From Spirochaetales bacterium (GTDB taxonomy: Bacteria > Spirochaetota > Spirochaetia > UBA9216): 34,933 nucleotides of DNA. The DNA lies in assembly GCA_016839055.1 (NCBI GenBank), contig JAEKNX010000027.1:1-34933 (forward strand), in the 5' to 3' direction. Of the stretch, positions 13,148 to 29,364 are shown piece by piece. Position numbers and translations under genes: made by a program. Every line of letters starts with the position of its first letter. Position 1 is the first letter of the stretch. Below the pieces are notes generated by a model. That model was not told the DNA's origin. It saw only the letters and a list, made by a program, of their open reading frames with translations, and did no database searches.

Positions 13148-14686
13148 ATGACAGTCATTTTCATTTCCATTCATATCGAAAAATCACCCGTTGCCTTCCC
13201 GCTTGCATCCGCGGTACTTAAAACAGCTGTTGAGAAATTCACCGGCCTTAAAGACTGCAGGGCCCTGCTGGAAGAGTTTTTCATGCCGCAAAAAGCTTCC
13301 GATATAGCAGATAGGCTCATTAAGACCGGCGCTTCATTCTTCGGATTCTCCGTCTACACCTGGAATGCCTCCCTTGTGATCGAAACCGCGCGAGTGCTCA
13401 AAGAGAGGATGCCCGATGCGGTTATTTTTGCAGGCGGACCGCAGGTTACGGCAGTACCCGGGGAGTTCAGAAAAACCGGACTGTTTAGTTTCATAGTCGA
13501 GGGTGAGGGTGAAGGAATTGTGCCTGGCCGTCTTTTGGGTTCTGCAGCACATGAAAGTATTGAATTCGATTTCAGCAAATCAGCCTCCCCCTATGCAAAG
13601 GTTCTCTCCGAAAAAAAATACAGCGGGGTACTCTGGGAGGTTTCCCGCGGATGTCCCTATAACTGCGCCTTCTGTTATGAATCAAGGGGCTGCGCTTCAA
13701 TAAGGACAATTTCCGAACAGCGGCTGATAGAAGAGCTCAAGCTGTTTCGTAAGATGGAAATTGAAAAGATCTGGGTACTTGATCCGACCTTTAATCACAA
13801 CAAAAAACATGCAGAAAACGTCCTTCAGATGATTCTCAAATACAATCCTGATGCCCATTACACTTTTGAAATCAGGGCCGAACTAATGAACGAAACATTG
13901 TGCAGACTGTTTTCTGAACTGGATGCCTCGCTCCAGATTGGACTTCAGAGTACCGACGAACAAGTATTAAAGAGCGTAAACAGATCACTCGATAAGGTGA
14001 AATTCGCGCAAAAATGCAAGCTGATGTCCTCATGGGGATTAACCTATGGAATAGATCTTATCTACGGACTTCCCTTCGATAGCATTGATAAGTTCTGTGA
14101 ATCTATCGATTTCGCGGTAAGCTCCGGTCCTAACAATATAGATATTTTTCCTCTTGCCGTTCTTCCGGGAACAGAACTTGCGGAAAAAGCTGATAGATAC
14201 GGACTTAACAACGAGGGGTTTCCCTCTTATACAATTACAGGTAATGCCGGCTTCCCAGCCGGGGACCTCCGTAAAGCCGAGGCTATAACCTCGGCCTGCA
14301 ACAGCCTTTATAATAAAGAGCAGGCCTTCCCGTGGTTTGAAACAATATTAAAAACTCTGGAACTTCCGGCTTCAGCGCTCTTTGAAAGGTATGACGCTGA
14401 CTCTGATTATGGGGCGGACATTATCGATTTCTTAGCCCGTGAGTTTAAAAAAGCCGGGAAAGAAGCATTATTCCAGCTTTTCGAGAGCTTCATACTCTGG
14501 AGCAGGACAGCCGAGGCCGCGTTTGCCAATCAAGGAACCGCCTTTCAGGTGAGTTTATGTCGAAAACCTGAGCAGCTTGATGAACTAATCAACACCGACC
14601 CCGAGACTTTTTTAGCCAGACATCCGAACGACAAAATGAAAAAGTATCAGATCATCTTCGACGGAGAGGAACTATATATCTATTAA
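13148..14686 (+). CDS. B12-binding domain / radical SAM protein (DUF4080-like C-terminus)
   Basis: The 512-residue protein has an N-terminal cobalamin-binding-like Rossmann domain at about residues 1-130 (FFGFSVYTWNASLVIETARVL, then FAGGPQVTA; no DxHxxG motif is evident). A radical SAM domain follows, with the cluster motif C169-PYNC173-AFC176. SLQIGLQSTDEQVLKSVNR, GIDLIYGLPFDS and DIFPLAVLPGTELAEKA are typical of this superfamily. The C-terminal 130 residues resemble the DUF4080 extension. The reaction (methylation, methylthiolation or another radical step) cannot be deduced. The start has AAGGCGG four bases upstream. The histidine kinase gene follows 48 bases downstream. Confidence 0.88.
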   Translation: MTVIFISIHIEKSPVAFPLASAVLKTAVEKFTGLKDCRALLEEFFMPQKASDIADRLIKTGASFFGFSVYTWNASLVIETARVLKERMPDAVIFAGGPQVTAVPGEFRKTGLFSFIVEGEGEGIVPGRLLGSAAHESIEFDFSKSASPYAKVLSEKKYSGVLWEVSRGCPYNCAFCYESRGCASIRTISEQRLIEELKLFRKMEIEKIWVLDPTFNHNKKHAENVLQMILKYNPDAHYTFEIRAELMNETLCRLFSELDASLQIGLQSTDEQVLKSVNRSLDKVKFAQKCKLMSSWGLTYGIDLIYGLPFDSIDKFCESIDFAVSSGPNNIDIFPLAVLPGTELAEKADRYGLNNEGFPSYTITGNAGFPAGDLRKAEAITSACNSLYNKEQAFPWFETILKTLELPASALFERYDADSDYGADIIDFLAREFKKAGKEALFQLFESFILWSRTAEAAFANQGTAFQVSLCRKPEQLDELINTDPETFLARHPNDKMKKYQIIFDGEELYIY

Positions 14687-15921: not shown

Positions 15922-17445
15922 ATGAAAACAGCCGCAGCAGGTTTTGATAATAATAAATACCTTGAGCAGCAGACAGCCGCCATCCTCGAAAGGGTTTCGC
16001 GATTTGAAAATAAACTTTATCTGGAATGCGGTGGAAAACTGATTTTTGATTATCACGCCTCTCGTGTCCTGCCGGGCTTCGATCCGAATGTGAAAATGCG
16101 GGTATTTCAATCATTTAAGGACAAGATTGATGTTATAATCTGCATCTTCGCCGGAGATATAGAAAAGAAAAAAATCCGTGCCGATTTCGGTATTACCTAT
16201 GATACCGATACGCTGAAACTGATCGATGATTATTCGTCCTGGGGGCTGAATGTAGCGGGAGTTGTAATAACCCGCTTCGAAGAGCAGCCGGGAGCTGTTC
16301 AGTTCAAGAACCTCCTTGAGAGACGCGGCATAAGGGTCTATACACATAAGTACACGAAGGGATATCCGACGGATGTCGACCTGATAGTGAGCGATGAAGG
16401 ATACGGAGCCAACGAATACATAGAAACAAGCCGGCCTGTTGTCGTAGTTACCGCACCAGGACCGGGCAGTGGAAAACTTGCTACCTGCCTGTCGCAGTTT
16501 TACCATGATTACCGCCGGGGAATCCGTTCCGGTTACGCCAAGCTTGAGACTTTTCCCATCTGGAACCTGCCGCTGAGCCATCCGGTTAATGTCGCCTATG
16601 AGGCCGCTACCGCCGACCTGGGGGATATCAATCTTATAGATAACTTTCATCTCGAGGAATATGGAGAAACTTCGGTCAATTACAACCGGGATATTGAGGC
16701 CTTCCCAGTACTGAAACGAATAATCGAAAAAATAACCGGTGAGAAATCTTTCTATCAGTCTCCGACCGACATGGGTGTCAACCGCTGCGGTTTCGGGATT
16801 TTCGATGATGAAATTGTTAAAGAGGCGGCAAAACAGGAGATAATTAGAAGGTATTTCAGAGCATCCTGTGACTATATCACCGGAGCGGGGACAAAGCAGA
16901 CAATAGATAAAATAAAGGTGCTGATGGACAACCTCGAACTGCATTCCAAAGACCGAGTAACAGTTCCCGCCGCAAGAGATGCGGTGACAGACGGAGCCTC
17001 ACGCGGAAAAGGCAAGGACGGAATAGTCTCGGGGGCCGCCATTCAGCTGAAAGACGGAACCCTTCTAACCGGTTCAAACTCAGAGCGGATGCACGCGGCC
17101 TCCGCCCTAATCCTGAATGCGTCAAAGCATCTTGCCGGAATGCCTTCAAATATTCATCTGATTCCACAGAGCATTATGAGCTCAGTCCGTTATCTGAAAG
17201 ACAAGGTTCTCGACGGCCGCCGCATCAGCCTCGATCTCGAAGAGGTTCTAATATCTCTTGCCATTTCGGCCGCAAATAATCCGGCGGCTCAGATGGCAAT
17301 GGATAAACTGAAAGAACTCCGGGGCTGTGAGGTTCATCTGACCCATCTGCCTTCCCCTGGTGATGAGGCGGGCCTCAGAAAGCTGGGAATCAACCACACA
17401 AGTGATCCTCAGTTTGCCTCGAGGCATCTTGTAGATGAAGTATAA
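15922..17445 (+). CDS. UPF0371 / DUF1846 family protein
   Basis: The 507-residue protein matches the DUF1846 (UPF0371) family over its full length. Landmarks are the N-terminal LYLECGGKLIFDYHASRVLPGF, a P-loop-like TAPGPGSGK (177-185), NVAYEAATADLGD, FYQSPTDMGVNRCGFGI and a C-terminal segment with GSNSERMHAASALILNA. Family members have known structures, but I know of no established reaction. The P-loop-like segment suggests a nucleotide or phosphate ligand. It appears to be a single-gene unit ending before the convergent rhodanese operon. AGGAG supports the ATG. Confidence 0.85.
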   Translation: MKTAAAGFDNNKYLEQQTAAILERVSRFENKLYLECGGKLIFDYHASRVLPGFDPNVKMRVFQSFKDKIDVIICIFAGDIEKKKIRADFGITYDTDTLKLIDDYSSWGLNVAGVVITRFEEQPGAVQFKNLLERRGIRVYTHKYTKGYPTDVDLIVSDEGYGANEYIETSRPVVVVTAPGPGSGKLATCLSQFYHDYRRGIRSGYAKLETFPIWNLPLSHPVNVAYEAATADLGDINLIDNFHLEEYGETSVNYNRDIEAFPVLKRIIEKITGEKSFYQSPTDMGVNRCGFGIFDDEIVKEAAKQEIIRRYFRASCDYITGAGTKQTIDKIKVLMDNLELHSKDRVTVPAARDAVTDGASRGKGKDGIVSGAAIQLKDGTLLTGSNSERMHAASALILNASKHLAGMPSNIHLIPQSIMSSVRYLKDKVLDGRRISLDLEEVLISLAISAANNPAAQMAMDKLKELRGCEVHLTHLPSPGDEAGLRKLGINHTSDPQFASRHLVDEV

Positions 17446-17552: not shown

Positions 17553-18479
17553 TTATTTCACTACAGGAAAACCTTCATTTACCCATCCCGAAGCTCCGGT
17601 AACCGATGTTCCCATTCCGCTTTTCATTGATACAGCGTCGTAACCGAGCAGTCTGAGAATTGCTACAGCCTGACCCGCGGTCTGGCCTGAGTAACAGTGA
17701 ACCACGAAGGTTTCATCCTTTGGAAGGCTTGAAAACTTCTCCTGCATTCCCTTACCCCAGGGAATAAGAATGGCGCCTTCAATATGACCGGCATCGTAAG
17801 CGTCCTGCATTCGGATAGAAACAACTGTACCGAGTTCCTCGGCATCAAGCATCTCTTTAACCTTGGACGCGGGCCAGATATTGCTTCCCTTCTCGGGGAT
17901 TACGTTAAAAAAGCCTTCGACTGCGGCCTTGATGTCGGCATCATACTTTACGCCTGAGGCATCGGGAGCCATTGTAGTCTCTTTTGTAATGTAAGCATCA
18001 ACACCTTCGGTCTTCATGATGCCGAGATTGTAACCATATTTAATTGACTCTGCCTGAATGCCGGCAACATTGAGCGCGGCGACTGCCTGACCGGCCGTCT
18101 GTCCAGTGTAACAGTTTACAAAAACGGGTTTGTCATCCGGAAGCCATGCAAGAGCATCGGCAATTGCAGGACCCCATGGAGCGTTTACCGCGCCTCTTAA
18201 ATGACCTTTGACATAGTCGTCGGCCTGTCTGATATCAAGAATCAGGAAATCTTCACCGGCGTCAATCATTTCCATGATCTTATCAGTCGGAATAATTCTG
18301 TTTCCGGGAAAATCAGCAAAATATGCAAGGGCTGCTGCTTCTACAGTATTTACCTTCTCTTCAACAACAACTTTCTCAGCAGCAACCGGAGCTGCAACTT
18401 TTTCGTCTTTAGTACAAGAAACGGCAATAAAACCGAAGACTAAAGCGAAAGACAACATTAAAGCGGTAATTTTCTTCAT
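17553..18479 (-). CDS. Lipoprotein with two rhodanese domains, both with catalytic Cys
   Basis: The 308-residue protein has a signal peptide with lipobox IAVSC (Cys22), an Ala/Val/Glu-rich linker, and two rhodanese domains at about residues 60-160 and 195-308. Each keeps an active-site loop: NCYTGQTA (C123) and HCYSGQTA (C262). The loops are near-copies, as are the preceding motifs (ILDIRQADDYVKGHL and VVSIRMQDAYDAGHI), indicating internal duplication. Rhodaneses carry sulfur as a Cys persulfide. Being lipid-anchored, this one acts outside the cytoplasm. AAGGAG is six bases before this ATG; a TTG one codon earlier is too close to it. It is the last gene of the sulfur operon. Confidence 0.88.
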   Translation of the reverse strand: MKKITALMLSFALVFGFIAVSCTKDEKVAAPVAAEKVVVEEKVNTVEAAALAYFADFPGNRIIPTDKIMEMIDAGEDFLILDIRQADDYVKGHLRGAVNAPWGPAIADALAWLPDDKPVFVNCYTGQTAGQAVAALNVAGIQAESIKYGYNLGIMKTEGVDAYITKETTMAPDASGVKYDADIKAAVEGFFNVIPEKGSNIWPASKVKEMLDAEELGTVVSIRMQDAYDAGHIEGAILIPWGKGMQEKFSSLPKDETFVVHCYSGQTAGQAVAILRLLGYDAVSMKSGMGTSVTGASGWVNEGFPVVK

Positions 18480-18502
18480 CAAAAACTCCTTATTGATTAT
18501 GC

Positions 18503-18523: not shown

Positions 18524-18548
18524 GACGCTTCCTATTCTAAGAAGCGTC
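18524..18548 (-). other. Hairpin spanning a stop codon
   Basis: GACGCTTC (18524-18531) and GAAGCGTC (18541-18548) form an eight-pair stem. The loop contains the TAG stop codon (18537-18539) of the upstream rhodanese gene and one arm encodes its last residues. No U-tract follows. Confidence 0.6.
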
Positions 18549-19454
18549 CTGAACTTCTATTCTAACTTCACCGGGCACTTCCGGTACAAATACCGGCAGT
18601 GAATCATCAGCGCTCCATTCAAGCCACGCGCCGTCATAGATCTTTAGATTTCTGTAGCCTGCATTATAGAGCGCGATCCAGCTCTGAGCGGCCCGGATTG
18701 AGCTCTTGCAGAACATAACAACGGTATCTTCCGGCATTATGTTCTTATCCTTGTAGAGGATTCTAATCTGCTGCACGGGTTTATATGTAAAATCTGAGAA
18801 ATCATTATTCAAATACTCAACATGTACAGCTCCGGGAATTGTTCCGGCATTGTACTCTTCATCTGATCTGACATCGATAATTACGCAGTTCTCAAGCGGA
18901 TTATCCAGCAGCTTGAGAACTTCTTCCTTATCAATTATCATCGATGAGTCAAGATTTCCGGGCTTGTAGACTACTGTCTTAGCAGAAGCCTTTCCCTTAA
19001 TAATTTTCACACCTTCAGCCTTCAAGGCCGAAAGGCCGCCTGAGACTACCTTAATCTGACCCTTATGGCCGTAGATCATGAATGTCCACGCAAGCCTGCC
19101 TGAATCCATATTATTGTTATCATCATAGATGATTATGTCTGATTCAGCGGTAATCCCCGCCATACCGGCGGCAGCGGATATACTTTCAGGCGAGGCAAGC
19201 ATATTCGCAACCTGCTTCTTTACGGTTATCTGGGCCCTCTCGATGTTAACAGCGGCTTCCACGTGTTCTTTTTCGAAGGACGTAGATTTCTGGGCATCAA
19301 CAAGAATCCAAGAACCAGTGGCGGCAAGTTCTGCCGCGTCATCTGCATTAATTATCAGCATACCGGACTCTGCGTAATCCCCATTCCCGCAGGATAAGAG
19401 AAGTACAACGGATATCATGATGATCAGAGCATCGGATAATAGTCTTTTCTTCAT
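18537..19454 (-). CDS. Lipoprotein tandem rhodanese sulfurtransferase (one active domain)
   Basis: The 305-residue protein has lipobox VVLLLSC (Cys22) and two rhodanese-like domains in the SseA/TST arrangement. The N-terminal domain has no catalytic Cys (IIYDDNNNMDSGRLAW), as usual for the structural half. The C-terminal domain carries C249 in FCKSSIRAA. Thiosulfate or mercaptopyruvate sulfurtransferases normally have CGSGVTA-like loops, so specificity may differ. The protein should be anchored outside the cytoplasm. The ATG at 19454 has AAGGGG eight bases upstream and places the basic start MKKR before the helix. A TTG eight codons earlier is possible but would overlap the preceding gene. 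Spacing to the reductase gene is 16 bases. Confidence 0.87.
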   Translation of the reverse strand: MKKRLLSDALIIMISVVLLLSCGNGDYAESGMLIINADDAAELAATGSWILVDAQKSTSFEKEHVEAAVNIERAQITVKKQVANMLASPESISAAAGMAGITAESDIIIYDDNNNMDSGRLAWTFMIYGHKGQIKVVSGGLSALKAEGVKIIKGKASAKTVVYKPGNLDSSMIIDKEEVLKLLDNPLENCVIIDVRSDEEYNAGTIPGAVHVEYLNNDFSDFTYKPVQQIRILYKDKNIMPEDTVVMFCKSSIRAAQSWIALYNAGYRNLKIYDGAWLEWSADDSLPVFVPEVPGEVRIEVQDAS

Positions 19455-19470
19455 TCCAGCTTCCCCTTTA

Positions 19471-20694
19471 TTAAGCAAGTATTGATTTCACTTCTTCCGG
19501 ATCAAAATTCTCACCGAGGATCTTGACTATTTTCCCGCCCTTGACAATTGCTAGGCGCGGAACTTCATCAATTTCCATTCGGTCGGAGAGTCCCCTTGAT
19601 TTATAGATATCAACCCTGGTAACGCAATGGTTTTTCTGCATTTCTTTCTCAAGTTTCTCAACCTCGGCAAGGCAGTCTCTACAGCCGGCCTCAGATGCAT
19701 CATAAACAAAAACAACTCCATCTTTACCGAGAATCTGACTCTTATACGTCTCTTCCTCAGCGATGAACTTTTCGGCTGCGTAACCGGCAATGGCACCATC
19801 GCCTACCGCGGTAGCTACCTGCTTCAGAAATTTATCGGTGACATCGCCTACCGCATAGACACCGCTGACATTTGTTTCCATGTTTTCATTTACAAGAACA
19901 TAACCCTTGTCAGTCATATTAAGCTTATCGTTAAAAATCTCGGTATTCGGAAGATATCCAATGAACTCAAAACAGGTAGGAACCTTGATATTAACTTCTT
20001 CCTTGGTCCTGAGGTTCTCAAGAACAACATTTTCAAGGTGTTCTCCGCCTTCAAACCGTTTTACAACAGTATTCCAGACAAATTCCATCTTGGGATTGGC
20101 AAGAGCCTCGGCCTTTGCAATCTCATTACAATCCATCTTGCCTTCATCATGAATAACGGAAACGATAACCTTATTAGCAAACTTAGTAAGAAACATTCCC
20201 TCTTCAATCGCGGCATCGCCTGAACCGATAATAAGAACATCTTTGCCACTATTAGAGGCAGCATCACAGGTTGCGCAGAATGAAATTCCCTTGTCAAAGA
20301 GAAATGTTTCTTCATTCTCGGCTCCTGTAACTCGGGGCCGACCGCCGGAGGCGACAATTACAACCTTTGACTTGTAGATGTTCCTGAAAGTCTCGACAAT
20401 CTTTACCTCACCCGAAAAATCTACAGATTTAACATCTGTACCCTTGAACTTAACACCAAACTTCTTCGCCTGCTTCTCGAACAGATTCATTAAACCCAGA
20501 CCTGTTGTCCCTTCGGGGAATCCGGGATAATTCTCTATTTCATTAGTGTATGTAGCAAGGCCGCCGACGAGCGATTTTTCAATAAGGAGGGTCTTGAGTC
20601 TTGCCCTCCCGCTATAAATGCCGGCAGTAAGACCGCCGGCTCCTCCGCCGATGATGACTACGTCATACTCTTCTATCTTTTTCTCTCTTTCCAT
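19471..20694 (-). CDS. Thioredoxin reductase fused to a C-terminal thioredoxin-like domain
   Basis: The 407-residue protein has a TrxB-type flavoprotein at residues 1-315, with the FAD motif GGGAGGLTAGIYSGRA, redox pair C140-ATC143, NADPH motif IIGSGDAA and the second FAD motif VYAVGDVTD. After a short linker there is a thioredoxin-like fold at about 322-407, with C338-RDC341 and the cis-Pro region DEVPRLAIVKGGK. The fusion should move electrons from NADPH through FAD and Cys140/143 to CRDC and then to a disulfide or persulfide substrate. Context suggests the TusA-like carrier, thiosulfate or glutathione-type persulfides. GGAG is five bases before the ATG. The fusion does not look like a sequencing artefact because the frame is continuous. 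Confidence 0.9.
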   Translation of the reverse strand: MEREKKIEEYDVVIIGGGAGGLTAGIYSGRARLKTLLIEKSLVGGLATYTNEIENYPGFPEGTTGLGLMNLFEKQAKKFGVKFKGTDVKSVDFSGEVKIVETFRNIYKSKVVIVASGGRPRVTGAENEETFLFDKGISFCATCDAASNSGKDVLIIGSGDAAIEEGMFLTKFANKVIVSVIHDEGKMDCNEIAKAEALANPKMEFVWNTVVKRFEGGEHLENVVLENLRTKEEVNIKVPTCFEFIGYLPNTEIFNDKLNMTDKGYVLVNENMETNVSGVYAVGDVTDKFLKQVATAVGDGAIAGYAAEKFIAEEETYKSQILGKDGVVFVYDASEAGCRDCLAEVEKLEKEMQKNHCVTRVDIYKSRGLSDRMEIDEVPRLAIVKGGKIVKILGENFDPEEVKSILA

Positions 20695-20800: not shown

Positions 20801-21334
20801 CTACATAAAAAACTTTACAAGTAGTTTACTTCCAACATAAGCGCCGGCAAACAAGAAGATAGCGTAGACCCATCCGGAAACCGAAAAGGAAGAGATCCCG
20901 CTGAAAAGCGCGCCAATGTTACATCCGAAACCGATTCTGGCGCCATAACCCATTGCAAGTCCGCCAAGGACTGCAGCAGCTATCTGTCTCCAGGATTTAA
21001 TCTTCTTGATCTTGAACTGTGACGCCATCAGAGTCGCAAAAAGCGCGCCAAGGATGATTCCTACATTTCTCATGCTTCCGGTATCTGACAAAAATCCGCC
21101 CTCAAGCGTCCTCTGGGCGCCAACGGACGCAAAGTAGTACCATTTATCTACAGTCCCGCCGACTGCCTCATAAAGCCAGGCTCCCCAGTTTGCGAGCACA
21201 CCAGAGACTCCCCATGGACTTCCGGTTGACGCCAGAGTAAAAACCTGAAATGCGGACAGAAGAACAGCGCCGGTTATGTAAGGCCAGGCGTCCTTGAACC
21301 ACATTTTATAGAATTCGTTATCCTTCAAAGCCAT
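20801..21334 (-). CDS. YeeE/YedE (TsuA-like) transporter, second half
   Basis: The 177-residue membrane protein has about four transmembrane helices and the YeeE hallmark GYGARIGFGCNIGALFSGIS, which carries a conserved Cys. TsuA/YeeE transporters conduct thiosulfate, using conserved cysteines from both halves of a pseudo-twofold molecule. Here the halves are separate genes, and this one supplies the C-terminal repeat. An unusual soluble loop (residues 40-70, WYYFASVGAQRTLEGGF nearby) precedes the repeat. The start lies two bases after the TusA-like stop codon, so translation is probably coupled. Substrate from family knowledge, split nature from sequence. Confidence 0.85.
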   Translation of the reverse strand: MALKDNEFYKMWFKDAWPYITGAVLLSAFQVFTLASTGSPWGVSGVLANWGAWLYEAVGGTVDKWYYFASVGAQRTLEGGFLSDTGSMRNVGIILGALFATLMASQFKIKKIKSWRQIAAAVLGGLAMGYGARIGFGCNIGALFSGISSFSVSGWVYAIFLFAGAYVGSKLLVKFFM

Positions 21335-21336
21335 GA

Positions 21337-21564
21337 TTATTTCACTTTCTCAATCACACATTCCCATTCACCGTCATCAACTTCTTCAATTTCGACGTTG
21401 TGACCCTCTTTTCTTGCCCACTCAGGAACATTCTTCATTGCACAGCTGTGGTCGATAAGCACGATAAGAAGATCTCCTATCTCAAGTTCCGCAAGTTTCT
21501 TTTCTGCCTTTACCAGAGGTATCGGACAAGCTTCTCCTAAACAATCAAGTTCATATTCTGCCAT
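21337..21564 (-). CDS. TusA/SirA-like sulfur carrier (TsuB/YeeD type)
   Basis: The 75-residue protein is a TusA-family two-layer sandwich with the sulfur-carrier motif C13-PIPLVKAEKKL. A second Cys in DHSCAMKNVPEWA is characteristic of the YeeD/TsuB branch that partners YeeE/TsuA. It should accept sulfur from transported thiosulfate at the cytoplasmic face and pass it on. Two in-frame ATG codons are present; the second (21564) has GGGAG at proper distance, whereas the first abuts it, so the second is chosen. The gene lies between the two YeeE halves. Confidence 0.9.
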   Translation of the reverse strand: MAEYELDCLGEACPIPLVKAEKKLAELEIGDLLIVLIDHSCAMKNVPEWARKEGHNVEIEEVDDGEWECVIEKVK

Positions 21565-21598
21565 ATTCATTCTCCCGTTTATTTAAGTATTATCATGC

Positions 21599-22294
21599 CT
21601 AAGCATTTTTTTCTTTTTTTCTATTCTCCCATTTGTGTGCCGCAACAAACAAACAGGCAATGATCAGCAACTGAACAACAAGCGCCCCAGCCCATCCGAA
21701 AACATCGGGCATGAAAACAGCTTTTCCGTTGCTGATTACGTTCAGTTTCCACCATCCAAAATCATGAGCGCCCCAGAGGGATCCAATAATGAAGAACAAG
21801 AGTGAAATAATCTGCATTGTGAATCCTTCACCAACTCTCATCAGTGTACCCGACGCACATCCGCCGGCTATTACCATCCCTATCCCAAAGATGAAGGCAC
21901 CGATTACAGTCGCGAAACTTACAGGAACGACATAGGATTGCCCCGGAATAGGCAGACCCTGCTGAGACGCGCCGTATTTAATAGCCCAGAATCCTAAGGA
22001 TGTCAGGGCAAAGGCTACAAGAACTGCCCTAGTGACGGTTGTACTGCCCGTCAGAGACGGATCTCTCATACTCGCTGTAAAACAAAACCTTGATTTCTGA
22101 AGGATGAAGCCGAAAGCCATTCCGGTAAACCAGAAAAGCCCGAGTTTCGGGTCCTTCAGAGCAAGAAGAATTCCAAGAATAATAATCACTATTCCCGCAG
22201 CTATTCCTATTGGAAGCTGACTCTTCTTCTTTTTTCGTGTTCTGCTTGAGCGTCTTATGCTTCCTGATGTCCCGGAAGTAGAAGCTTCACTCAT
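21599..22294 (-). CDS. YeeE/YedE (TsuA-like) transporter, first half
   Basis: The 231-residue membrane protein has about six helices. Family motifs are LQKSRFCFTASMRD and VIAGGCASGTLMRVGEGF, each with a conserved cysteine expected to line the thiosulfate path. The first 27 residues are unusual: a Ser/Thr-rich stretch followed by RTRKKKK, probably a cytoplasmic basic tail. It is the first gene of the sulfur operon, with a very good Shine-Dalgarno (AAGGAGG, six bases before ATG). Together with the second half it should form a complete TsuA-like channel. Confidence 0.88.
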   Translation of the reverse strand: MSEASTSGTSGSIRRSSRTRKKKKSQLPIGIAAGIVIIILGILLALKDPKLGLFWFTGMAFGFILQKSRFCFTASMRDPSLTGSTTVTRAVLVAFALTSLGFWAIKYGASQQGLPIPGQSYVVPVSFATVIGAFIFGIGMVIAGGCASGTLMRVGEGFTMQIISLLFFIIGSLWGAHDFGWWKLNVISNGKAVFMPDVFGWAGALVVQLLIIACLFVAAHKWENRKKEKNA

Positions 22295-22397
22295 TAAAAA
22301 CCTCCTTGCTGAAATTCAATTTCATTCAGATTATCATCGAATTAGGCAAATCTAACTATCTTTATATTACCTTATTCGTATAATCACTCTTTAATAC

Positions 22398-22426
22398 ATT
22401 ATAAGCTAGTTATATTCAGTTTACAA
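22398..22426 (-). promoter_or_regulatory. Promoter of the sulfur operon
   Basis: On the minus strand TTGTAA (22426-22421), 17 bases, and a perfect TATAAT (22403-22398). The predicted leader is about 97 bases, long enough for regulation, but no riboswitch-like fold is recognised in it. Confidence 0.6.
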
Positions 22427-22461
22427 TATAAAGCTTTTAAATTATCGATAAAATAAGTTGC

Positions 22462-22491
22462 TTGACACGAATAGATGTGCACAATTATATT
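22462..22491 (+). promoter_or_regulatory. Promoter of the GT39-like gene, apparently leaderless
   Basis: Perfect TTGACA (22462-22467), 18 bases, TATATT (22486-22491). The -10 box ends eight bases before the ATG at 22499, and no Shine-Dalgarno is present, so the start codon should be at or next to the 5' end of the mRNA. Confidence 0.6.
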
Positions 22492-22498
22492 AATATAA

Positions 22499-24037
22499 AT
22501 GAAAAAACGCACTTTTCATCCGAGTACTTTAGTAATTTTTATCTTTATCTGGACAATAATAAACCTGCTCTTCCTGTCAGTCTTTCCGTTCATGCATACT
22601 GATGAAGCATGGCTTGCCGGACTCAGCAGGACCATGATGCTCGAAAAAAATCCGGGTGTGACCGAAACTTTCTTTGATATCAGCCGAAGAGCACCTCATG
22701 CAATAAAACTACTATACCATCTACTTCAGATAATTTTCATCAAGACAGCCGGTTACAGCCTCTTCAGTGTCCGTCTTCTTTCTCTTTTTGGAGGAGCCTC
22801 CGCCCTGCTGACCTTCGGAGGACTTCTAAAAAAATTGTCATTACCGCCGCTCGGCGGAACCATCCTGCTCTCGCTCGAGGTTCAGTTCTTATACGCATCT
22901 CACTTCGGGCGTCAGGAAATACTCATACTCCTTCTCATGCTCATCTCGCTCAATGCTCTTTATATGAAAAAGTATCAGGGCCTAATCCGCGGACTCCTCT
23001 GCGGACTGCCAATTGCCCTGGCCGTCGGTTTTCACCCGAACGCCTTCATAGCGGCCTGGCCTTCCGGGCTGCTGCTTGCAGGGTTAATAATCCGAAAAAA
23101 AAGGCGGCTCTCCGAGGGACTCGGCTTCATTCTGACCGCCTCCGCGGGAGCCGGAGTTTTCATCCTGCTGAGTTTTCTTTTTAACCGGGCCTTTGCAGCT
23201 GATTACACCTCATTCGGCTCGAAGGTCGGGGCTCTAAATCCCCTGGATGTAAAACTCCTCGGCTTTGATGATTTCTACAGAAAGCTCTTTCTCAGAATAA
23301 GCGGAACCTACTACACCCCGAATATAATCCCACTTTTTATAGCGGCGGCTGCGGGGACAGTCTGCTCCGCCTTGCTTTCAATAAGAAGCAAGACCATTCC
23401 GAAGACTATGATTTTTGCGCTTACGGGAATTGCCGCCGTTAACGCGGGGATCATCCTCATTGGCAAATACAGCGCGCCGTCGGTTGTCTTTCTCACTCCT
23501 TTCATGGTGATCCTCATCTGCGGCGGTATCGAGAGGACTGGCAGGATGCATAGAAGAGCTCTCTATGCTGCCGCTGCGTCCGTCCTGCTGCTGAACTCCA
23601 GCCTGATGATAGCAGAAGAGCTCCGCGGCGGCCGCGAGACTCACGCGCAGTACACCGAAAAAATAGCAGAGGCAATTCCGCGAAACGCGATGACCCTCGG
23701 CGGGCTCACAGCGGGCTTCTATTTTGAAGATGGAAAGCTGCTGGACTGGCGGAACCTTGCACTGCTAAATGAGGCGGGAGTCACCCTTGAGGAGTATATC
23801 GGGGGAAATGATATTGAATATATTATTTATTCCGATGAGATAGACTACATCTATAAAAACCGTCCGGTATGGAACATTCTATATGGAAATCCGGTTGTAT
23901 ATTATGAGCCGCTTCAAGTTTTCCTCGAAGAAAAATGCAGGCTAATCTCGGAATTTCCGAGCCCCGGCTACGGCACCAGGCTTGTTATGCATAGATTTAA
24001 AAAAAACTGGAAAGTCAGGATCTACCGGCTGAAATAA
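22499..24037 (+). CDS. GT39/ArnT-like membrane glycosyltransferase
   Basis: The 512-residue protein has about ten transmembrane helices followed by a soluble C-terminal region from about residue 385. The first external loop carries HTDEAWLAGLSR (D35-E36), the acidic motif of GT-C enzymes such as ArnT and protein mannosyltransferases that bind a polyprenyl-phosphate sugar. FGRQEILILLLMLISL and FHPNAF fit the family. It should transfer a sugar from a lipid carrier to a lipid, glycan or protein on the outer face of the inner membrane. It converges on, and overlaps by 23 bases, the last gene of the operon that encodes a matching GT2 and flippase-like pair. No Shine-Dalgarno. Confidence 0.8.
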   Translation: MKKRTFHPSTLVIFIFIWTIINLLFLSVFPFMHTDEAWLAGLSRTMMLEKNPGVTETFFDISRRAPHAIKLLYHLLQIIFIKTAGYSLFSVRLLSLFGGASALLTFGGLLKKLSLPPLGGTILLSLEVQFLYASHFGRQEILILLLMLISLNALYMKKYQGLIRGLLCGLPIALAVGFHPNAFIAAWPSGLLLAGLIIRKKRRLSEGLGFILTASAGAGVFILLSFLFNRAFAADYTSFGSKVGALNPLDVKLLGFDDFYRKLFLRISGTYYTPNIIPLFIAAAAGTVCSALLSIRSKTIPKTMIFALTGIAAVNAGIILIGKYSAPSVVFLTPFMVILICGGIERTGRMHRRALYAAAASVLLLNSSLMIAEELRGGRETHAQYTEKIAEAIPRNAMTLGGLTAGFYFEDGKLLDWRNLALLNEAGVTLEEYIGGNDIEYIIYSDEIDYIYKNRPVWNILYGNPVVYYEPLQVFLEEKCRLISEFPSPGYGTRLVMHRFKKNWKVRIYRLK

Positions 24038-24734
24038 GCTTATAAACTTCACGCTCAATCTTTACAAATTCATCAGAGAATTCATCCCGCTCCCTGCTCA
24101 GGCTGATTGCCATTTCACGAGTTCCGCCCGGTGTCATTATCAGCAGCCTATCGGCAAGGTAGACAGCCTCTCTTATGTCGTGGGTAACAAACATCATCGA
24201 TACACTGAACTCCAGCCGGAGGTCGAGAAGCATGTTCTGAAGTTCCCGGCGGGTCGGAGCATCAAGTGCTGTAAACGGCTCATCGAGCAGGAGAATCTCG
24301 GGTCTCGGGGTCATGGCCCTTGCAATCACGGCCCGCTGCTTCATCCCGCCTGAGAGCTGAGACGGATACATTTCCGCAGACTCCGACAGCCCAACCAGCC
24401 GCAGCAGCCTGTCCGAGCTGTCCTCCTCGCCGGGAAGAGATGGAAAGGCGACATTCCGGCGGACAGTCAGCCATGGGAAAAGTTGATGGCTGTCCTGAAA
24501 TACCATTATCCGCTTGCGGCCGGGCTGAGGATTGATCATTTCCTGAAAAACAAGTCTGCCGCCTTCCGGAGGCGTAAAACCTCCCGCAATATTGAGTAAA
24601 CTGGTTTTCCCGCAGCCGGAGGGGCCGATTATGCATAGGATTTCATCCTTACCGAGACGCACAGAGACATCGCTGAGAACCGGCGGAAAGCCTGGATATC
24701 CGAAACGGATATGCTCAAGACTGATGACTGTCAT
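24015..24734 (-). CDS. ABC importer ATPase (SsuB/TauB-like)
   Basis: The 239-residue protein has Walker A GPSGCGKT (37-44), signature LSGGMKQRAVIARA and Walker B ILLLDEPFTALD, with the switch His in FVTHDIREAVYLADR. It matches the nitrate/sulfonate/taurine importer ATPases. The ATG at 24734 overlaps the permease stop codon as ATGA and has GGGGAG seven bases upstream, so it is preferred over an upstream GTG. It is the last gene of the minus-strand operon; its end overlaps the convergent GT39 gene by 23 bases. Confidence 0.9.
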   Translation of the reverse strand: MTVISLEHIRFGYPGFPPVLSDVSVRLGKDEILCIIGPSGCGKTSLLNIAGGFTPPEGGRLVFQEMINPQPGRKRIMVFQDSHQLFPWLTVRRNVAFPSLPGEEDSSDRLLRLVGLSESAEMYPSQLSGGMKQRAVIARAMTPRPEILLLDEPFTALDAPTRRELQNMLLDLRLEFSVSMMFVTHDIREAVYLADRLLIMTPGGTREMAISLSRERDEFSDEFVKIEREVYKLISAGRS

Positions 24735-25504
24735 ACGGAGACTCCCCACCTGCGGACTGTTTTATTTTCAATAAGATTGAACAGCCCGCTCTCGACGATT
24801 ATGCCGAGGATGGCAAGCATTAAGATTCCGGCGTACATCCCGGGAGTATCCATGAAGATTCTCTTGTTGTAGACAAACCAGCCTAGACCTCCCCCGCTTC
24901 CGGTTATTCCAAATACCATCTCGGCGCTTACTGCCGCCCTCCAGGCCCGGGCCCATGCCGTCTTGAGTCCTGACAGGATATGCGGAAAGGAGGCCGGAAC
25001 CATTATCCTAAAAAAGAAGGCCGCGGATTTAAGTCCGTAATTACTTCCTATCCTGCGGTAAACAGCGGGAACCGAGGTAAAACCGGCCGATATATTTATT
25101 ATCAGCGGCCAGATGACCGAATGGATAATAACAACGAGCAGCGTAATCCGGCCTATTCCGAAGAAGAGAATGAAGACCGGAAGAAGGGCAATTCCCGGAA
25201 GCGGATGAAGGACGGCCGTCAACATTCCGCTGAGTCTTTTGACTGCGTCAAACTGAAACGACAATGCTGAAATTATAAAGGCTCCTATTCCGCCCGCACT
25301 TATTCCGGCAAAGACGAAACCAAGGGATAAAAGCATGCTGATCTCAAGTTCGCCGCTTCCCCACTCGAAGGCAAAACTGCGCAGAATAACCGTAACCGGC
25401 GGCATGATTAATTGTGAAACAAGACCGCTCCGCGAAACGATCTCCCAGAGCCCGAGGAGGGCGGCAAACCAGATAATAGAGCCTTCTATCCTGCTTCTTT
25501 TCAT
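24731..25504 (-). CDS. ABC importer permease (SsuC/TauC-like)
   Basis: The 257-residue integral membrane protein has about six helices and a central permease coupling motif (RIGSNYGLKSAAFFFRIMVPASFPHI contains the EAA-like region; GLKTAWARAWRAAVSAEM follows). It belongs to the BPD_transp_1 family of the sulfonate/nitrate/taurine group. It starts three bases after the substrate-binding protein stop codon and overlaps the ATPase gene, so the three form one importer. The Shine-Dalgarno is poor. Confidence 0.88.
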   Translation of the reverse strand: MKRSRIEGSIIWFAALLGLWEIVSRSGLVSQLIMPPVTVILRSFAFEWGSGELEISMLLSLGFVFAGISAGGIGAFIISALSFQFDAVKRLSGMLTAVLHPLPGIALLPVFILFFGIGRITLLVVIIHSVIWPLIINISAGFTSVPAVYRRIGSNYGLKSAAFFFRIMVPASFPHILSGLKTAWARAWRAAVSAEMVFGITGSGGGLGWFVYNKRIFMDTPGMYAGILMLAILGIIVESGLFNLIENKTVRRWGVSV

Positions 25505-25507
25505 CCG

Positions 25508-26446
25508 CTAATCCCGGAGGCCCTCATAGAGCACATCGCTCTCAGTCAGTCCGCTGCTGAGATAATTATTTTCGGTCATAAACTCTATGAATCTGCCGAG
25601 GCCCTTTATCTCTGTTGTATATTTCATCCCCGGATAGGTAATGTATCTAAGAATATCCTCTTGCGGCAGCTCATAAATACCGGCTAATATCCGCGCGCAT
25701 TCTTCAGGCCGGGCGCCTATAAAATCAACCGCCCTCTCAAGGGCCGTTAAAAAGCTGTTTAAAAGTTCCGGCCGATCCTTTATGAACGCGCCGTCGGCCA
25801 TGGCCACAATGAAGGAAAACTCACCGCCAAAGGCCTCCGTGCCTCCGAGCACCGTCTCATAACCTCCTCCACCTTCATTCTCCATGAAGATGTAGGGAGG
25901 AGAGGTAAAGTGAGCGTCAACCGCCCCGGAGAGAAGCGCCATCATCCCGTCGGGGTGTTTCATAGTAACAAGGCTGCCGTCAAAGAGGGCCGGATCACCC
26001 CGCTCTCTTTCAGCCGCCATTGATAGAAGGATGTGCTGAATGCTTCCAGGCTGAGGCAGCGCTATGCGGTGATCTTTTCTAAGGCTGCCGAAATCAGGAA
26101 TCTCAGAACTTTCGGCAACGAGACCGACTGGGCAGACCGACAGGCCCGAAATCAGCTTCCAGTCCATCCCTTTATCGGCACCTATGAGGAGGGGAGGAAT
26201 TCCCAGAAAACCGGCGTCTACTTCGCCGGCAAGTACTGCCTCGCGAATAGCGGCCGTATTTCCAAGTTTTACCCACTTCACCTCGAAGTCCGGCTCGAGT
26301 TCTTCAAAAAAAGCTTTCTCCCGCATAATCTGGAGCGGGGCGTACGCAAGTCCGTACTGCTCAGCTATCGTAACGGACTTATCGTCCGAACAGGAAACAA
26401 AGAGAAACACCGATAGGGTTAAGGTGATTACAACTAATTTTCTCAA
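25508..26446 (-). CDS. ABC importer substrate-binding lipoprotein (SsuA/NMT1-like)
   Basis: The 312-residue protein has lipobox LFVSC (Cys19). The periplasmic-binding fold of the SsuA/TauA/THI5 group follows, with AEQYGLAYAPLQIMREKAFF at the start, GEVDAGFLGIPP in domain one and SGAVDAHFTSPPYIF in domain two. Ligands of this group include sulfonates, taurine, nitrate and thiamine precursors; none can be chosen here. The start is TTG with GGAGG seven bases upstream, inside the end of the ATP-grasp gene, only three bases from its stop codon. That links the importer to the ATP-grasp/glycosyl genes in one operon. Confidence 0.87.
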   Translation of the reverse strand: MRKLVVITLTLSVFLFVSCSDDKSVTIAEQYGLAYAPLQIMREKAFFEELEPDFEVKWVKLGNTAAIREAVLAGEVDAGFLGIPPLLIGADKGMDWKLISGLSVCPVGLVAESSEIPDFGSLRKDHRIALPQPGSIQHILLSMAAERERGDPALFDGSLVTMKHPDGMMALLSGAVDAHFTSPPYIFMENEGGGGYETVLGGTEAFGGEFSFIVAMADGAFIKDRPELLNSFLTALERAVDFIGARPEECARILAGIYELPQEDILRYITYPGMKYTTEIKGLGRFIEFMTENNYLSSGLTESDVLYEGLRD

Positions 26447-26449
26447 AAT

Positions 26450-27715
26450 TCAGCCTCCAAAGAACATCTTATCATAGACTCTTATCATATTCTGTCCGTT
26501 TTCATCATTAATCCTTAGAAGCGAATAAGCTTTCCGTACAACTTCATCGGCTTCTGCCTTGTCAGAGCAGCAGACAATAAAGTAACCCGAGCGCTGGGTT
26601 GAATTGAGCCTGTTCCGAACAGAAGTCCCCCCCGGCAGAAGAAACGCGCCTCCTGTTACCCCCGGCAGTTTTCTAACTTCCTCCATCCCGAGACAGGAAT
26701 CAATCCTCCCCTCGCGGCAGAAAAACATCTGAAGAGAGACGACCTTTCCTTCTAAGTGGCTGTCAATCCGCTCCATAGCGCCCTTATCATAATCGAGTCC
26801 GCAGCTCATCTTTATCATCACATCGAGAATATCTACTCCGGTAATAAAGGGGATAAACTCATCCTCATAGGCGCCGCCGAGCCTGCAGGCTGTCTCGTTC
26901 ACGATTATGCCCTCTTCGCCGATCAGGTACTGAAAATACACCGGCCCCGTTTTTATCCCGAAGGTGAGGACAATTTCCTCGGTCATTCGGCGGATTTCGG
27001 GAAGGCGCTCTATATGCCGTGAGGGGTACTGATGAGAGATGCAGACGCCTATGCCCGGAAGATTATCAAGCCTGCGCCGGTCGGTGACCGTCAGTATATA
27101 AAGCCGTCCGGCCTCGACCCAGCCGCTGAGCGTTACCTCATCGGACTCATAATACTCTTCAACGAGGATTTCACTCTCCCGGCTGAAATGCGCGACCTCG
27201 CTGAACCTGTCGGCAACTTCAGCAGCGGTTTCAAGCCGGTAGACCCCGCGCTGTCCCTGAGAATCAAGCGGTTTGACAACAACTGGAAACGAGAGAGAGG
27301 ATATCTCATCGGCCCTGAAGCCCTCGGAGACAAAGGTATAGGGGGAAACCCTGATTCCAGCCGCGCTCAACCTTGTTTTCATAGCCTTTTTATTCGTTAC
27401 CCAGAGGGCCTGTTCGGGACTTAGAAAATACGGGATACCGAGCCGCTTGGAAACTACCGCAGCCGTCAGAACAGGCTGATCTGTGCCCGTAACCAGAACG
27501 GCACCGACACTGAGGCCCCGCCTCGTCTGGAACCGCCTGAGCGCCGCCTCAGTCTCCTGGGCATCGAAGGTGGATGCCTTCTCAAAGAAATCTGCGGCGA
27601 GGCAGCCCGGGGCTTCGCTGTTTATGTCGGTAACGAGAACCTTCATCCCGAGCTTGCGGCTTCGCATTATGGCAGAAAGCTGCCCCGGGCCGCCGCCAAT
27701 AATATTTAGAATCAT
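26450..27715 (-). CDS. ATP-grasp superfamily ligase
   Basis: The 421-residue protein has a PurK/carbamoyl-phosphate-synthase-like preATP-grasp Rossmann start (IIGGGPGQLSAIMRSRKLG, then VTDINSEAPG). The ATP-grasp core follows: FPVVVKPLDSQGQRGV, ILVEEYYESDEVTLSGW and the metal-binding IIVNETACRLGGAYEDEF. ATP-grasp ligases activate a carboxylate as acyl phosphate and join it to an amine, thiol or similar. No partner domain identifies the substrate. GGGAGG is six bases before the ATG, which overlaps the GT2 stop codon by four bases. Its position between the glycosyltransferase and the importer suggests it modifies a sugar or imported acid, by inference. Confidence 0.85.
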   Translation of the reverse strand: MILNIIGGGPGQLSAIMRSRKLGMKVLVTDINSEAPGCLAADFFEKASTFDAQETEAALRRFQTRRGLSVGAVLVTGTDQPVLTAAVVSKRLGIPYFLSPEQALWVTNKKAMKTRLSAAGIRVSPYTFVSEGFRADEISSLSFPVVVKPLDSQGQRGVYRLETAAEVADRFSEVAHFSRESEILVEEYYESDEVTLSGWVEAGRLYILTVTDRRRLDNLPGIGVCISHQYPSRHIERLPEIRRMTEEIVLTFGIKTGPVYFQYLIGEEGIIVNETACRLGGAYEDEFIPFITGVDILDVMIKMSCGLDYDKGAMERIDSHLEGKVVSLQMFFCREGRIDSCLGMEEVRKLPGVTGGAFLLPGGTSVRNRLNSTQRSGYFIVCCSDKAEADEVVRKAYSLLRINDENGQNMIRVYDKMFFGG

Positions 27716-28470
27716 TTAAAGCCTCCCTTATCGGCTACCCGATACTGCCGGCATCCGCTGACTATCCCCGGGCCTTCGGTAAGTAACCGGGTTAATCTTC
27801 TGATTACAGGAGTATACCAGAGAAAAAGTTTAAGGTAGAGAATGAGCCTGCCCGATGTTCCGTAACGGCTTGGCTGAGCCGGCAACGCGGCCTGCGGTTC
27901 GGCCGGATATCTTATTGAGCCAATCCTGAGGGCCCCGCTGAAGAGTTCGGCGGAGATATAGACAAACCTGCCGTCGGCAGCGCAGATGAGATCTACAGCG
28001 GCCCGGGAGAGGATCCTGAAGCTTCCTATCTTCATTCCTGCCGGTTTTCCAAGAAGAATAGAGAAAAACCCGTCACGAATAAGGCCTCCGGCTTTACCCG
28101 AGCCATTCCCGGGCACCGCGTAAACCGCGTCAAATCTGCCCTCTTCCGCCTCGCTATACAGGGCCGGGATGAATTCGGGCGGATGCTGAAGGTCGTCATC
28201 TATCGTCACCGCCCAGTCGCCGCTGCAGTGCCGAAATCCGCAGAGGACGGCTGCCTGCTGCCCCCTGTTTTCGGCGAGTCTAACCCAGGCGGACGAGGGT
28301 TCGGTCGTGCATATGCCTTTAATCTGCTCAATACTGCCGTCGGTACTGCCGTCATCAACGAAAACAACCTCCCAGGGGCAGCCAAGAGCTTTCATCACAG
28401 GCTCAAGCCGGGTCCATAGAGCCTTCAGCCCGGCGCCTCCGTTATAGACGGGGATGATAACACTAAGCAC
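27712..28470 (-). CDS. GT2 polyprenyl-phosphate-type glycosyltransferase
   Basis: The 252-residue protein is a GT-A enzyme of the dolichol-phosphate-mannose synthase / ArnC group. It begins LSVIIPVYNGGAGL, has FVDDGSTDGS and TIDDDLQHPPEFIP (metal and sugar-nucleotide binding), GSFRILSRAA and SRYGTSGRLILYLKLF. Unlike ArnC or GtrB it lacks the two C-terminal transmembrane helices, so it probably docks at the membrane or with the EamA partners. The GTG start at 28470 has GGAG six bases upstream and overlaps the EamA gene by eight bases. An ATG at 28548 would overlap it by 86 bases and add 26 unrelated residues. Confidence 0.83.
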   Translation of the reverse strand: MLSVIIPVYNGGAGLKALWTRLEPVMKALGCPWEVVFVDDGSTDGSIEQIKGICTTEPSSAWVRLAENRGQQAAVLCGFRHCSGDWAVTIDDDLQHPPEFIPALYSEAEEGRFDAVYAVPGNGSGKAGGLIRDGFFSILLGKPAGMKIGSFRILSRAAVDLICAADGRFVYISAELFSGALRIGSIRYPAEPQAALPAQPSRYGTSGRLILYLKLFLWYTPVIRRLTRLLTEGPGIVSGCRQYRVADKGGFK

Positions 28471-28831
28471 CGAGGGCTCCGGATGCAAACGGCAGAAGAA
28501 ATCCTGCTGAAATAAGGACCACACCTGCAACCTGCATGGCGTTAACATCCTCCTTCAGGAGAAAGTGGCCGGAGAGAAAAACAAAAATATAATTGAGAGA
28601 GTTAAACGCGAAAGCCTCGGACAGCGGAACTGCCCCGAGCGCCTTAATGTAAAGAAGGGGAGCACAGACAACTCCGGCCGCCCCAAGGATAATTCCCGGA
28701 ACAAGAAGAGAATGAAAAAAACTTATAAGACCCGCGTCGGTGACTATTTTGTACGTATTTTTCTTCAACAAAAGCTGTCCGGCCGTCACCAGCACCGGCA
28801 TAAGAATAAGAAGAAGGTATTCAGCTCTCAT
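28463..28831 (-). CDS. EamA/EmrE-like small membrane protein, second of pair
   Basis: The 122-residue protein has four transmembrane helices in the small-multidrug-resistance/EamA half-size pattern, with AGQLLLKKNTYK after helix one and EAFAFNSLNYIFVFLSGHFLLKE before helix four. Half-size pairs of this sort include ArnE/ArnF, which flip undecaprenyl-phosphate aminoarabinose. Its ATG overlaps the upstream EamA stop codon by one base (TAATG) and it overlaps GT2 downstream. Probably works as a heterodimer with its neighbour. Confidence 0.8.
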   Translation of the reverse strand: MRAEYLLLILMPVLVTAGQLLLKKNTYKIVTDAGLISFFHSLLVPGIILGAAGVVCAPLLYIKALGAVPLSEAFAFNSLNYIFVFLSGHFLLKEDVNAMQVAGVVLISAGFLLPFASGALGA

Positions 28832-29196
28832 TACGCACTCTTCCCCTTCCTCGCCCCCGACTGTCCTGCTGCAGTAAAGACTATCCCGGTAAAAATCAGC
28901 GCGGCTCCTGCAGCCTTCTCCCAGCTTATTTCATCGCCGAAGAAATAAGCCGATAGCGGCAGAATGAGGAGATAGACCATCCCGGTTAAGGGATAAGCGG
29001 CAACAAGCTTCATCCTCTTTAGAATGAGAATCCATATCAGTCCACGGCTCAGGAGACAGATATAACTGATTGCCGTAAAAAGATTTATAAAACCGTCTTC
29101 GGCTCCGGCCCTCCCGGCTGACAGCTGTCCTCCAAGCTGCAAGGCGAGAAAAAGCAGCATGAGCTGTACTATAATTTTATTGTGTCTTGTTATCAC
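28831..29196 (-). CDS. EamA/EmrE-like small membrane protein, first of pair
   Basis: The 121-residue protein has four transmembrane helices, with MKLVAAYPLTGMVYLLILPLSAYFFGDEISWEKAAG matching the central part of EamA/SMR proteins. It begins with GTG and has no Shine-Dalgarno. A -10 box lies eight bases upstream, so the operon mRNA may be leaderless. It is the first gene of the seven-gene operon and likely forms a heterodimeric lipid-sugar flippase or exporter with the next gene. Confidence 0.78.
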   Translation of the reverse strand: MITRHNKIIVQLMLLFLALQLGGQLSAGRAGAEDGFINLFTAISYICLLSRGLIWILILKRMKLVAAYPLTGMVYLLILPLSAYFFGDEISWEKAAGAALIFTGIVFTAAGQSGARKGKSA

Positions 29197-29203
29197 GTTC
29201 AGG

Positions 29204-29233
29204 ATTATATATGAATATTGATGCTAGTTGCAA
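29204..29233 (-). promoter_or_regulatory. Candidate promoter of the EamA-GT2-ATP-grasp-ABC operon
   Basis: On the minus strand TTGCAA (29233-29228), 18 bases, and a perfect TATAAT (29209-29204). The expected start near 29197 is next to the GTG start codon at 29196. Confidence 0.45.

Positions 29234-29291: not shown

Positions 29292-29364
<73 letters not shown>

Follow-up and report, generated by a model that had tools for sequence, protein, structure and literature searches.

The described systems that come closest to the locus reported here, which lies in a contig of a Spirochaetales bacterium (GenBank assembly GCA_016839055.1, JAEKNX010000027.1; 'the window' is the whole analysed stretch of 34,933 nucleotides), are the three-component periplasmic glycosylation systems, which combine a polyprenyl-phosphate GT2, a small membrane flippase and a GT-C glycosyltransferase (PMC11127046, PMC8035078). 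The locus consists of a seven-gene minus-strand operon, a convergent GT-C gene and a sulfur operon divergent from the latter; it shares all three components with these systems, but adds an ATP-grasp ligase of the L-amino acid ligase (LAL) type (sometimes fused to the GT2), and an ATP-binding cassette (ABC) importer, and is linked to a sulfur module as well. A second parallel is the Arn pathway (ArnB, ArnC, ArnE/ArnF, ArnT), with its 4-amino sugar logic, an ArnC-like GT2 domain, a paired EamA flippase and a GT-C. Unlike Arn, the cluster has a GT2 that is mostly free of a membrane hairpin, carries dTDP-4-amino-4,6-dideoxyhexose genes at loci elsewhere, and is not confined to lipopolysaccharide-bearing bacteria.

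The best explanation, to which a probability of about 0.5 can be given, is an acylating glycosylation system coupled to extracytoplasmic sulfur handling. The operon and the GT-C gene are best read as one half of a conserved cluster, its glycan half, the sulfur module being the other. Open reading frames (ORFs) and junctions were read directly from the sequence of the window and families were assigned by Pfam and NCBIfam profile scans; all eight ORFs of the glycan half, seven on the minus strand and the convergent one on the plus strand, are present:

28831-29196, minus strand: EamA1, an ArnE/F-like half-transporter, small and with four helices (21.7 bits with Pfam EamA, less than the cut-off of 28.2)
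28463-28831, minus strand: EamA2, the second transporter half (Pfam EamA 36.6 bits, above cut-off; NCBIfam ArnE 38.8 bits against a cut-off of 92)
27712-28470, minus strand: GT2, a predicted polyprenyl-phosphate sugar transferase, soluble form (Pfam Glycos_transf_2, 7.8e-29)
26450-27715, minus strand: GRASP, an ATP-grasp amide ligase, LAL type (Pfam ATP-grasp_4 and LAL_C2, the latter 43.1 bits, cut-off 29.4)
25508-26446, minus strand: SBP, a substrate-binding lipoprotein from the NMT1/SsuA group (scores exceed the Pfam cut-offs for NMT1_2 and NMT1)
24731-25504, minus strand: PERM, the ABC importer permease (BPD_transp_1, 5.9e-15)
24015-24734, minus strand: the ABC importer ATPase (ABC_tran, 1.6e-27; the ATG start at 24734 is proposed from the ATGA overlap)
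22499-24037, plus strand: GT-C membrane glycosyltransferase of the PMT_2 group (from PMT_2 matches of orthologues and a 22-member alignment)

Within the operon, EamA1 and EamA2 share one base (28831), EamA2 and GT2 overlap by 8 bases given a GT2 start at GTG 28470, and GT2 and GRASP overlap by the 4 bases ATGA (27712-27715). Gaps of 3 bases separate GRASP from SBP and SBP from PERM, and PERM overlaps the ATPase gene by 4 bases given the ATPase start at ATG 24734. At their 3' ends, the converging GT-C and ATPase genes have 23 bases in common (24015-24037). This confirms the original prediction of seven minus-strand genes that overlap or lie within three bases of each other, with a convergent GT39 gene, the GT39 protein being a GT-C of the PMT_2 type. 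A sigma-70-like promoter upstream of EamA1 (29233-29204; consensus match only) ends 8 bases ahead of the first GTG, a position from which the operon mRNA may be leaderless; the seven genes would form a single transcript. A tRNA-Phe gene (29292-29364, plus strand) is divergent from the operon.

Homologues of GRASP were found in spirochaete genomes and on contigs of Halanaerobiales, Calditrichales, Clostridia and Eubacteriaceae, and GT2-GRASP-SBP-PERM-ATPase is the predominant order in the mapped loci (about 40, from several phyla, 15 of them mapped in addition to these homologues). Since the same order recurs in about 40 loci, the arrangement is not due to chance. GT2 and GRASP are adjacent in 33 loci, GRASP and SBP in 28 (median overlap 4 bases), and the GT-C gene converges on the ATPase gene in 23. 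At L052, L057, L058, L094 and L095, GT2 and GRASP form a single ORF; in a maximum-likelihood tree built from 40 GRASP proteins these fusions occupy three separate branches, with unfused relatives in between. Fusion arose at least three separate times, and this, together with the adjacency in 33 loci, argues that GT2 and GRASP share a substrate. Distances among GRASP proteins correlate with those among GT2, GT-C, SBP, RhodB and TrxR (r 0.64 to 0.78; only cluster proteins were compared), a pattern to be expected of genes that travel together. That the glycan unit is real and conserved is near certain.

The GT2, the EamA flippase pair and the GT-C, all encoded together in the window, likely constitute a three-component glycosylation core. 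The solved structures nearest to GT2 are ArnC (3e-25) and DPMS (7.4e-17), and residues D39-D40 and D91-D92-D93 are conserved; the protein of the window has no hydrophobic segment, and the C-terminal membrane hairpin is missing from most GT2 copies. The EamA1-EamA2 tandem pair is kept in nine loci. The GT-C protein of the window itself has no Pfam match above threshold, and its profile found no significant match among solved structures; it is assigned to the PMT_2 class because 16 of the 22 orthologues match PMT_2 (best 4.8e-12), and the alignment of all 22 members has a conserved N-terminal HxDE motif. The original prediction can be judged in part from these data. Its charge-flip-transfer logic appears to hold, given the ArnC-nearest GT2, the EamA pair and the PMT_2-type GT-C, and its inclusion of the ATP-grasp ligase and the importer stands, since a dedicated SBP was found in 36 of the 38 genomes tested and GRASP adjoins SBP in the 28 loci above; ABC or ATP-grasp genes lying regularly elsewhere in relatives were looked for, and this is not the case. 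The term 'Arn-like', taken as membership, fails (ArnC, ArnE and ArnF all score below cut-off and most GT2 copies are without the hairpin), and the prediction overlooked both the sulfur module that is linked to the operon and the amino-sugar genes WecE and RfbB of other loci.

The sulfur operon starts across a 204-base region from the GT-C gene; its products are the two parts of a split YeeE, TusA, a thioredoxin reductase that ends in a thioredoxin-like domain, and a pair of lipoproteins with two rhodanese stretches each:

22295-22498, no strand: promoter region shared by the GT-C gene and the sulfur module, with back-to-back sigma-70-like sites
21599-22294, minus strand: YeeE_C, one half of a YeeE/YedE sulfur transporter encoded by two genes (Sulf_transp, 1.4e-30, matching the profile's first half)
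21337-21570, minus strand: TusA-like sulfur carrier (TusA, 4e-25)
20801-21334, minus strand: YeeE_N, the remaining half of that two-gene transporter (Sulf_transp, 9.8e-33, matching the profile's second half)
19471-20694, minus strand: TrxR, a thioredoxin-reductase-like flavoprotein with a C-terminal thioredoxin-like domain (Pyr_redox_2, 1.8e-42; Thioredoxin, 7.5e-06)
18537-19478, minus strand: RhodA, a double-rhodanese lipoprotein (Rhodanese, two stretches, 4.2e-33)
17553-18482, minus strand: RhodB, a double-rhodanese lipoprotein with C-x-(S/T)GQTAGQ loops (Rhodanese, two stretches, 2.3e-25; loops from the alignment)

The promoter-like sites read TTGACA-18-TATATT (plus strand, 22462-22491) and TTGTAA-17-TATAAT (minus strand, 22426-22398), and their predicted back-to-back placement suggests shared control of the GT-C gene and the sulfur operon. 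A YeeE-type transporter with a neighbouring TusA-like carrier is also found in YeeE/TsuA-TusA import (E. coli TsuAB, SoxT; PMC11582611), but the cluster differs in that its YeeE is split around TusA and that a TrxR-Trx fusion and two rhodanese lipoproteins are coupled to it. The 231-amino-acid YeeE half stays below the TsuA equivalog cut-off (74.6 against 400 bits, the gene being split), as TrxR does below that of TIGR01292 (307 against 343 bits). At least one sulfur-module gene lies within 29 of 41 homologous loci, several of the remainder being interrupted by contig ends. In 7 loci the GT-C gene comes after RhodB on the same strand; in 11 it is divergent from RhodA. RhodB is doubled (about 590-610 amino acids) among the lineages of L042, L045, L046, L056, L141, L144 and L145, and the L145 protein reaches 740 amino acids with four rhodanese stretches and a Cu_amine_oxidN1 domain. 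Thiosulfate reduction via AsrA was considered as a partner process and rejected, as the AsrA cut-off was passed by just one relative, which is itself without the cluster.

The two halves also occur together across genomes. Among 60 relatives (a GRASP orthologue being a match above 200 bits), GRASP, GT-C and RhodB are present in the same 13, with two exceptions: G003 has a fragment of GT-C and G014 a weak match to RhodB. A second set comprised 299 genomes from the phylum of a Halanaerobiales locus; RhodB was found in 16 of 16 GRASP-positive genomes as against 7 of 283 others, all seven at or below 243 bits, and 5 of the 16 carriers have divergent forms of both GRASP and RhodB. By Fisher's test, p is 3e-12 for the first set and 2e-21 for the second. 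In G003, which belongs to the genus of the window (L062, G003:C42:41000-60500), GRASP is reduced to fragments with stops, no intact GT2 is found, EamA is decayed and GT-C is a fragment; RhodB is absent, and SBP, permease and ATPase are intact. Judging by these remains, G003 is a natural joint loss of the glycan and sulfur parts that left the importer in place.

The importer belongs to the same SBP, permease and ATPase families as SsuABC and TauABC. An AlphaFold2 (AF2) model of SBP (predicted local distance difference test score, pLDDT, 94.1) has SsuA (2x26) and TauA (6ssy) as its nearest folds, but the protein is below all SsuA and TauA cut-offs (NCBIfam SsuA_fam 86.3 against 163.5 bits, taurine_ABC_bnd 25.8 against 304), and no SsuD- or TauD-like gene was recognised in the annotated stretch. 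Many SBP residues are invariant from spirochaetes through Clostridia, which suggests one conserved ligand. The SAO (SaoAPX) system has related ABC families and a similar association with sulfur and selenium genes, but membership was rejected, since SaoA, SaoP and SaoX score 176, 78 and 40 bits against cut-offs of 360, 295 and 300 (NCBIfam). The dedicated SBP is missing in two of the 38 genomes, and at L045 and L046 the ABC genes stand beside the TrxR/YeeE sulfur genes, not GRASP; the importer is therefore a regular but looser member, whose ligand could serve either half. In the two genomes without the dedicated SBP, a fusion of a flavoprotein disulfide reductase and a rhodanese (L136:164-1861, Pfam-shown, and L138:10015-11712) adjoins a different SsuABC-like importer.

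It is quite possible, at somewhat less than even odds, that the importer feeds the sulfur module with a sulfonate or other organosulfur compound and that the ligase uses an ordinary cytoplasmic amino acid, an alternative that touches the importer's role only and can stand beside the other parts of the best explanation. The closeness of SBP to SsuA and TauA by both fold and profile, the gene neighbours at L045 and L046 and the retention of the ABC genes in G003 after GRASP was lost all speak for it. Against this, GRASP and SBP are adjacent with overlapping genes in 28 loci, G003 is also without RhodB, so that its ABC genes persist without either half, and nitrate, thiamine precursors and pyrroloquinoline quinone are also bound within the SsuA group.

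The AF2 model of GRASP (pLDDT 91.8) best matches the LAL 3vot_B in VIA-align (Z 37.6 over 381 residues, root mean square deviation 2.7), the profile alignment retains the LAL catalytic motif ExxxRxGG, and LAL_C2 is passed as well, which makes the protein LAL-type by both profile and modelled fold. With the characterised enzymes BL00235, RizA and BacD (3vot, 4wd3, 3vmm) it shares the fold, LAL_C2 and the motif, but it is just 13-20% identical to them and adjoins, or is fused to, a glycosyltransferase. A second, large ATP-grasp family (L073-L092; mostly ORFs of about 750 amino acids, 205-240 bits) occurs in dozens of genomes of the phylum. As the closest characterised relatives of GRASP form dipeptides, the enzyme might make a small soluble peptide or cofactor and leave the sugar untouched, the operon being shared for regulation; this is unlikely in view of the three separate GT2 fusions and of the 33 loci in which GRASP adjoins GT2.

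The nature of the sugar is indicated by other lineages. An aminotransferase adjoins GT2 in many non-spirochaete loci and in the spirochaete loci L054-L056; WecE (dTDP-4-amino-4,6-dideoxygalactose transaminase) is above the NCBIfam cut-off at L040, L041, L042, L055 and L145, RfbB (dTDP-glucose 4,6-dehydratase) at L042, L137, L139 and L142, and RmlA-like thymidylyltransferases occur at L137 and L142. With WecE and RfbB encoded there, the sugar of those lineages would be a dTDP-4-amino-4,6-dideoxyhexose. No flippase gene was seen near most WecE-type loci. A division into mutually exclusive WecE and EamA versions is refuted by L145-L147 and L149, where both genes are present; the two are more plausibly different steps in one pathway than substitutes for each other.

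The GT2 fusions and the WecE genes make it the best reading of the glycan half that the ATP-grasp ligase acylates the amine of the sugar, and we infer the following course for an acylating glycosylation system. GT2 would load a (4-amino-4-deoxy) sugar on undecaprenyl phosphate at the cytoplasmic face; the ATP-grasp ligase, beside GT2 or fused with it, would activate a carboxylic acid, an amino acid being the likeliest, as acyl phosphate and ligate it to the sugar amine; the EamA pair would flip the acylated lipid-linked sugar, and the GT-C would move the acylated sugar onto an extracytoplasmic acceptor. The SsuA/TauA-like importer would bring in a small, probably sulfur-containing, acid. In the other half, the rhodanese lipoproteins, split YeeE, TusA and TrxR may gather sulfane sulfur outside the cell, import it and reduce it or pass it on. 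A more specific version, distinctly unlikely, has the glycan half produce a sugar-thiol anchored to the membrane or to a protein, which would be the equivalent of bacillithiol or mycothiol at the cell surface; here the ligase would couple cysteine or another sulfur acid to the lipid-linked amino sugar, and the exported thiol would bind sulfane sulfur for the rhodanese lipoproteins.

Several observations weigh against acylating glycosylation coupled to sulfur handling. Specifically, (i) the genomes compared share ancestry, and the co-occurrence p-values overstate independence accordingly; (ii) no linked or close orthologous WecE was found in the window's genome, whose four strong DegT aminotransferases lie elsewhere, are 25-34% identical and fall below the WecE cut-off; (iii) no strong sulfur-module match was found at L146-L149 or L097, and at L145 YeeE, TusA and a multi-rhodanese protein are present only as weak matches; and (iv) the idea that the imported compound is the ATP-grasp substrate is weakened by the survival of the ABC genes in G003 with a decayed ATP-grasp gene, and by the two genomes without the dedicated SBP (G510, G680), which have the different SsuABC-like set near the ATP-grasp gene.

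A selenium system, in which the YedE/TusA-like genes and the LysR gene of other lineages would move selenium and the glycan carry or handle it, is highly unlikely. The top model of both YeeE halves is indeed the YedE/FdhT selenium model (102 and 100 bits), the linked LysR scores 192 bits with a selenium-associated LysR model, and selD is present in 9 of 13 GRASP-positive relatives as against 15 of 47 others; all these scores are, however, below cut-off (350 for YedE/FdhT, 250 for LysR). Four GRASP-positive genomes are without selD, two of them at least 90% complete, and selenium was rejected as the sole explanation on that ground.

The reading as a genuine Arn pathway (L-Ara4N lipid A) plus additional genes can practically be dismissed, for although ArnC is the solved structure nearest to GT2 and the EamA halves score best with ArnE/ArnF, every Arn model is below its NCBIfam cut-off (ArnC 83 against 529 bits, ArnE 38.8 against 92, ArnF 31.1 and 27.9 against 99), the linked sugar genes are of dTDP-Fuc4N and not UDP-Ara4N type, and the cluster occurs in Clostridia, where lipid A is not expected. 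No ArnB is linked in the window, and one aminotransferase of the same genome reaches 303 bits against the ArnB cut-off of 631.

Three-component systems are known for plain sugars; with an amide ligase tied to the transferase, such a system would place sugars bearing acyl or aminoacyl groups outside the membrane. In distant anaerobes the glycan genes are tightly coupled to the handling of sulfur outside the cytoplasm, which suggests that the surface glycoconjugate has a role related to sulfur. No description of the glycan-sulfur combination was found in a literature search that reached few subscription journals and took in no annotated spirochaete record; work on thiosulfate in Halanaerobium, in the passages covered, reports rhodanese-like proteins without this cluster (PMC5497025). 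On its far side, the sulfur module is adjoined by a DUF1846 protein with both N- and C-terminal domains (window 15922-17445), and a B12-binding radical SAM protein is encoded at 13148-14686.

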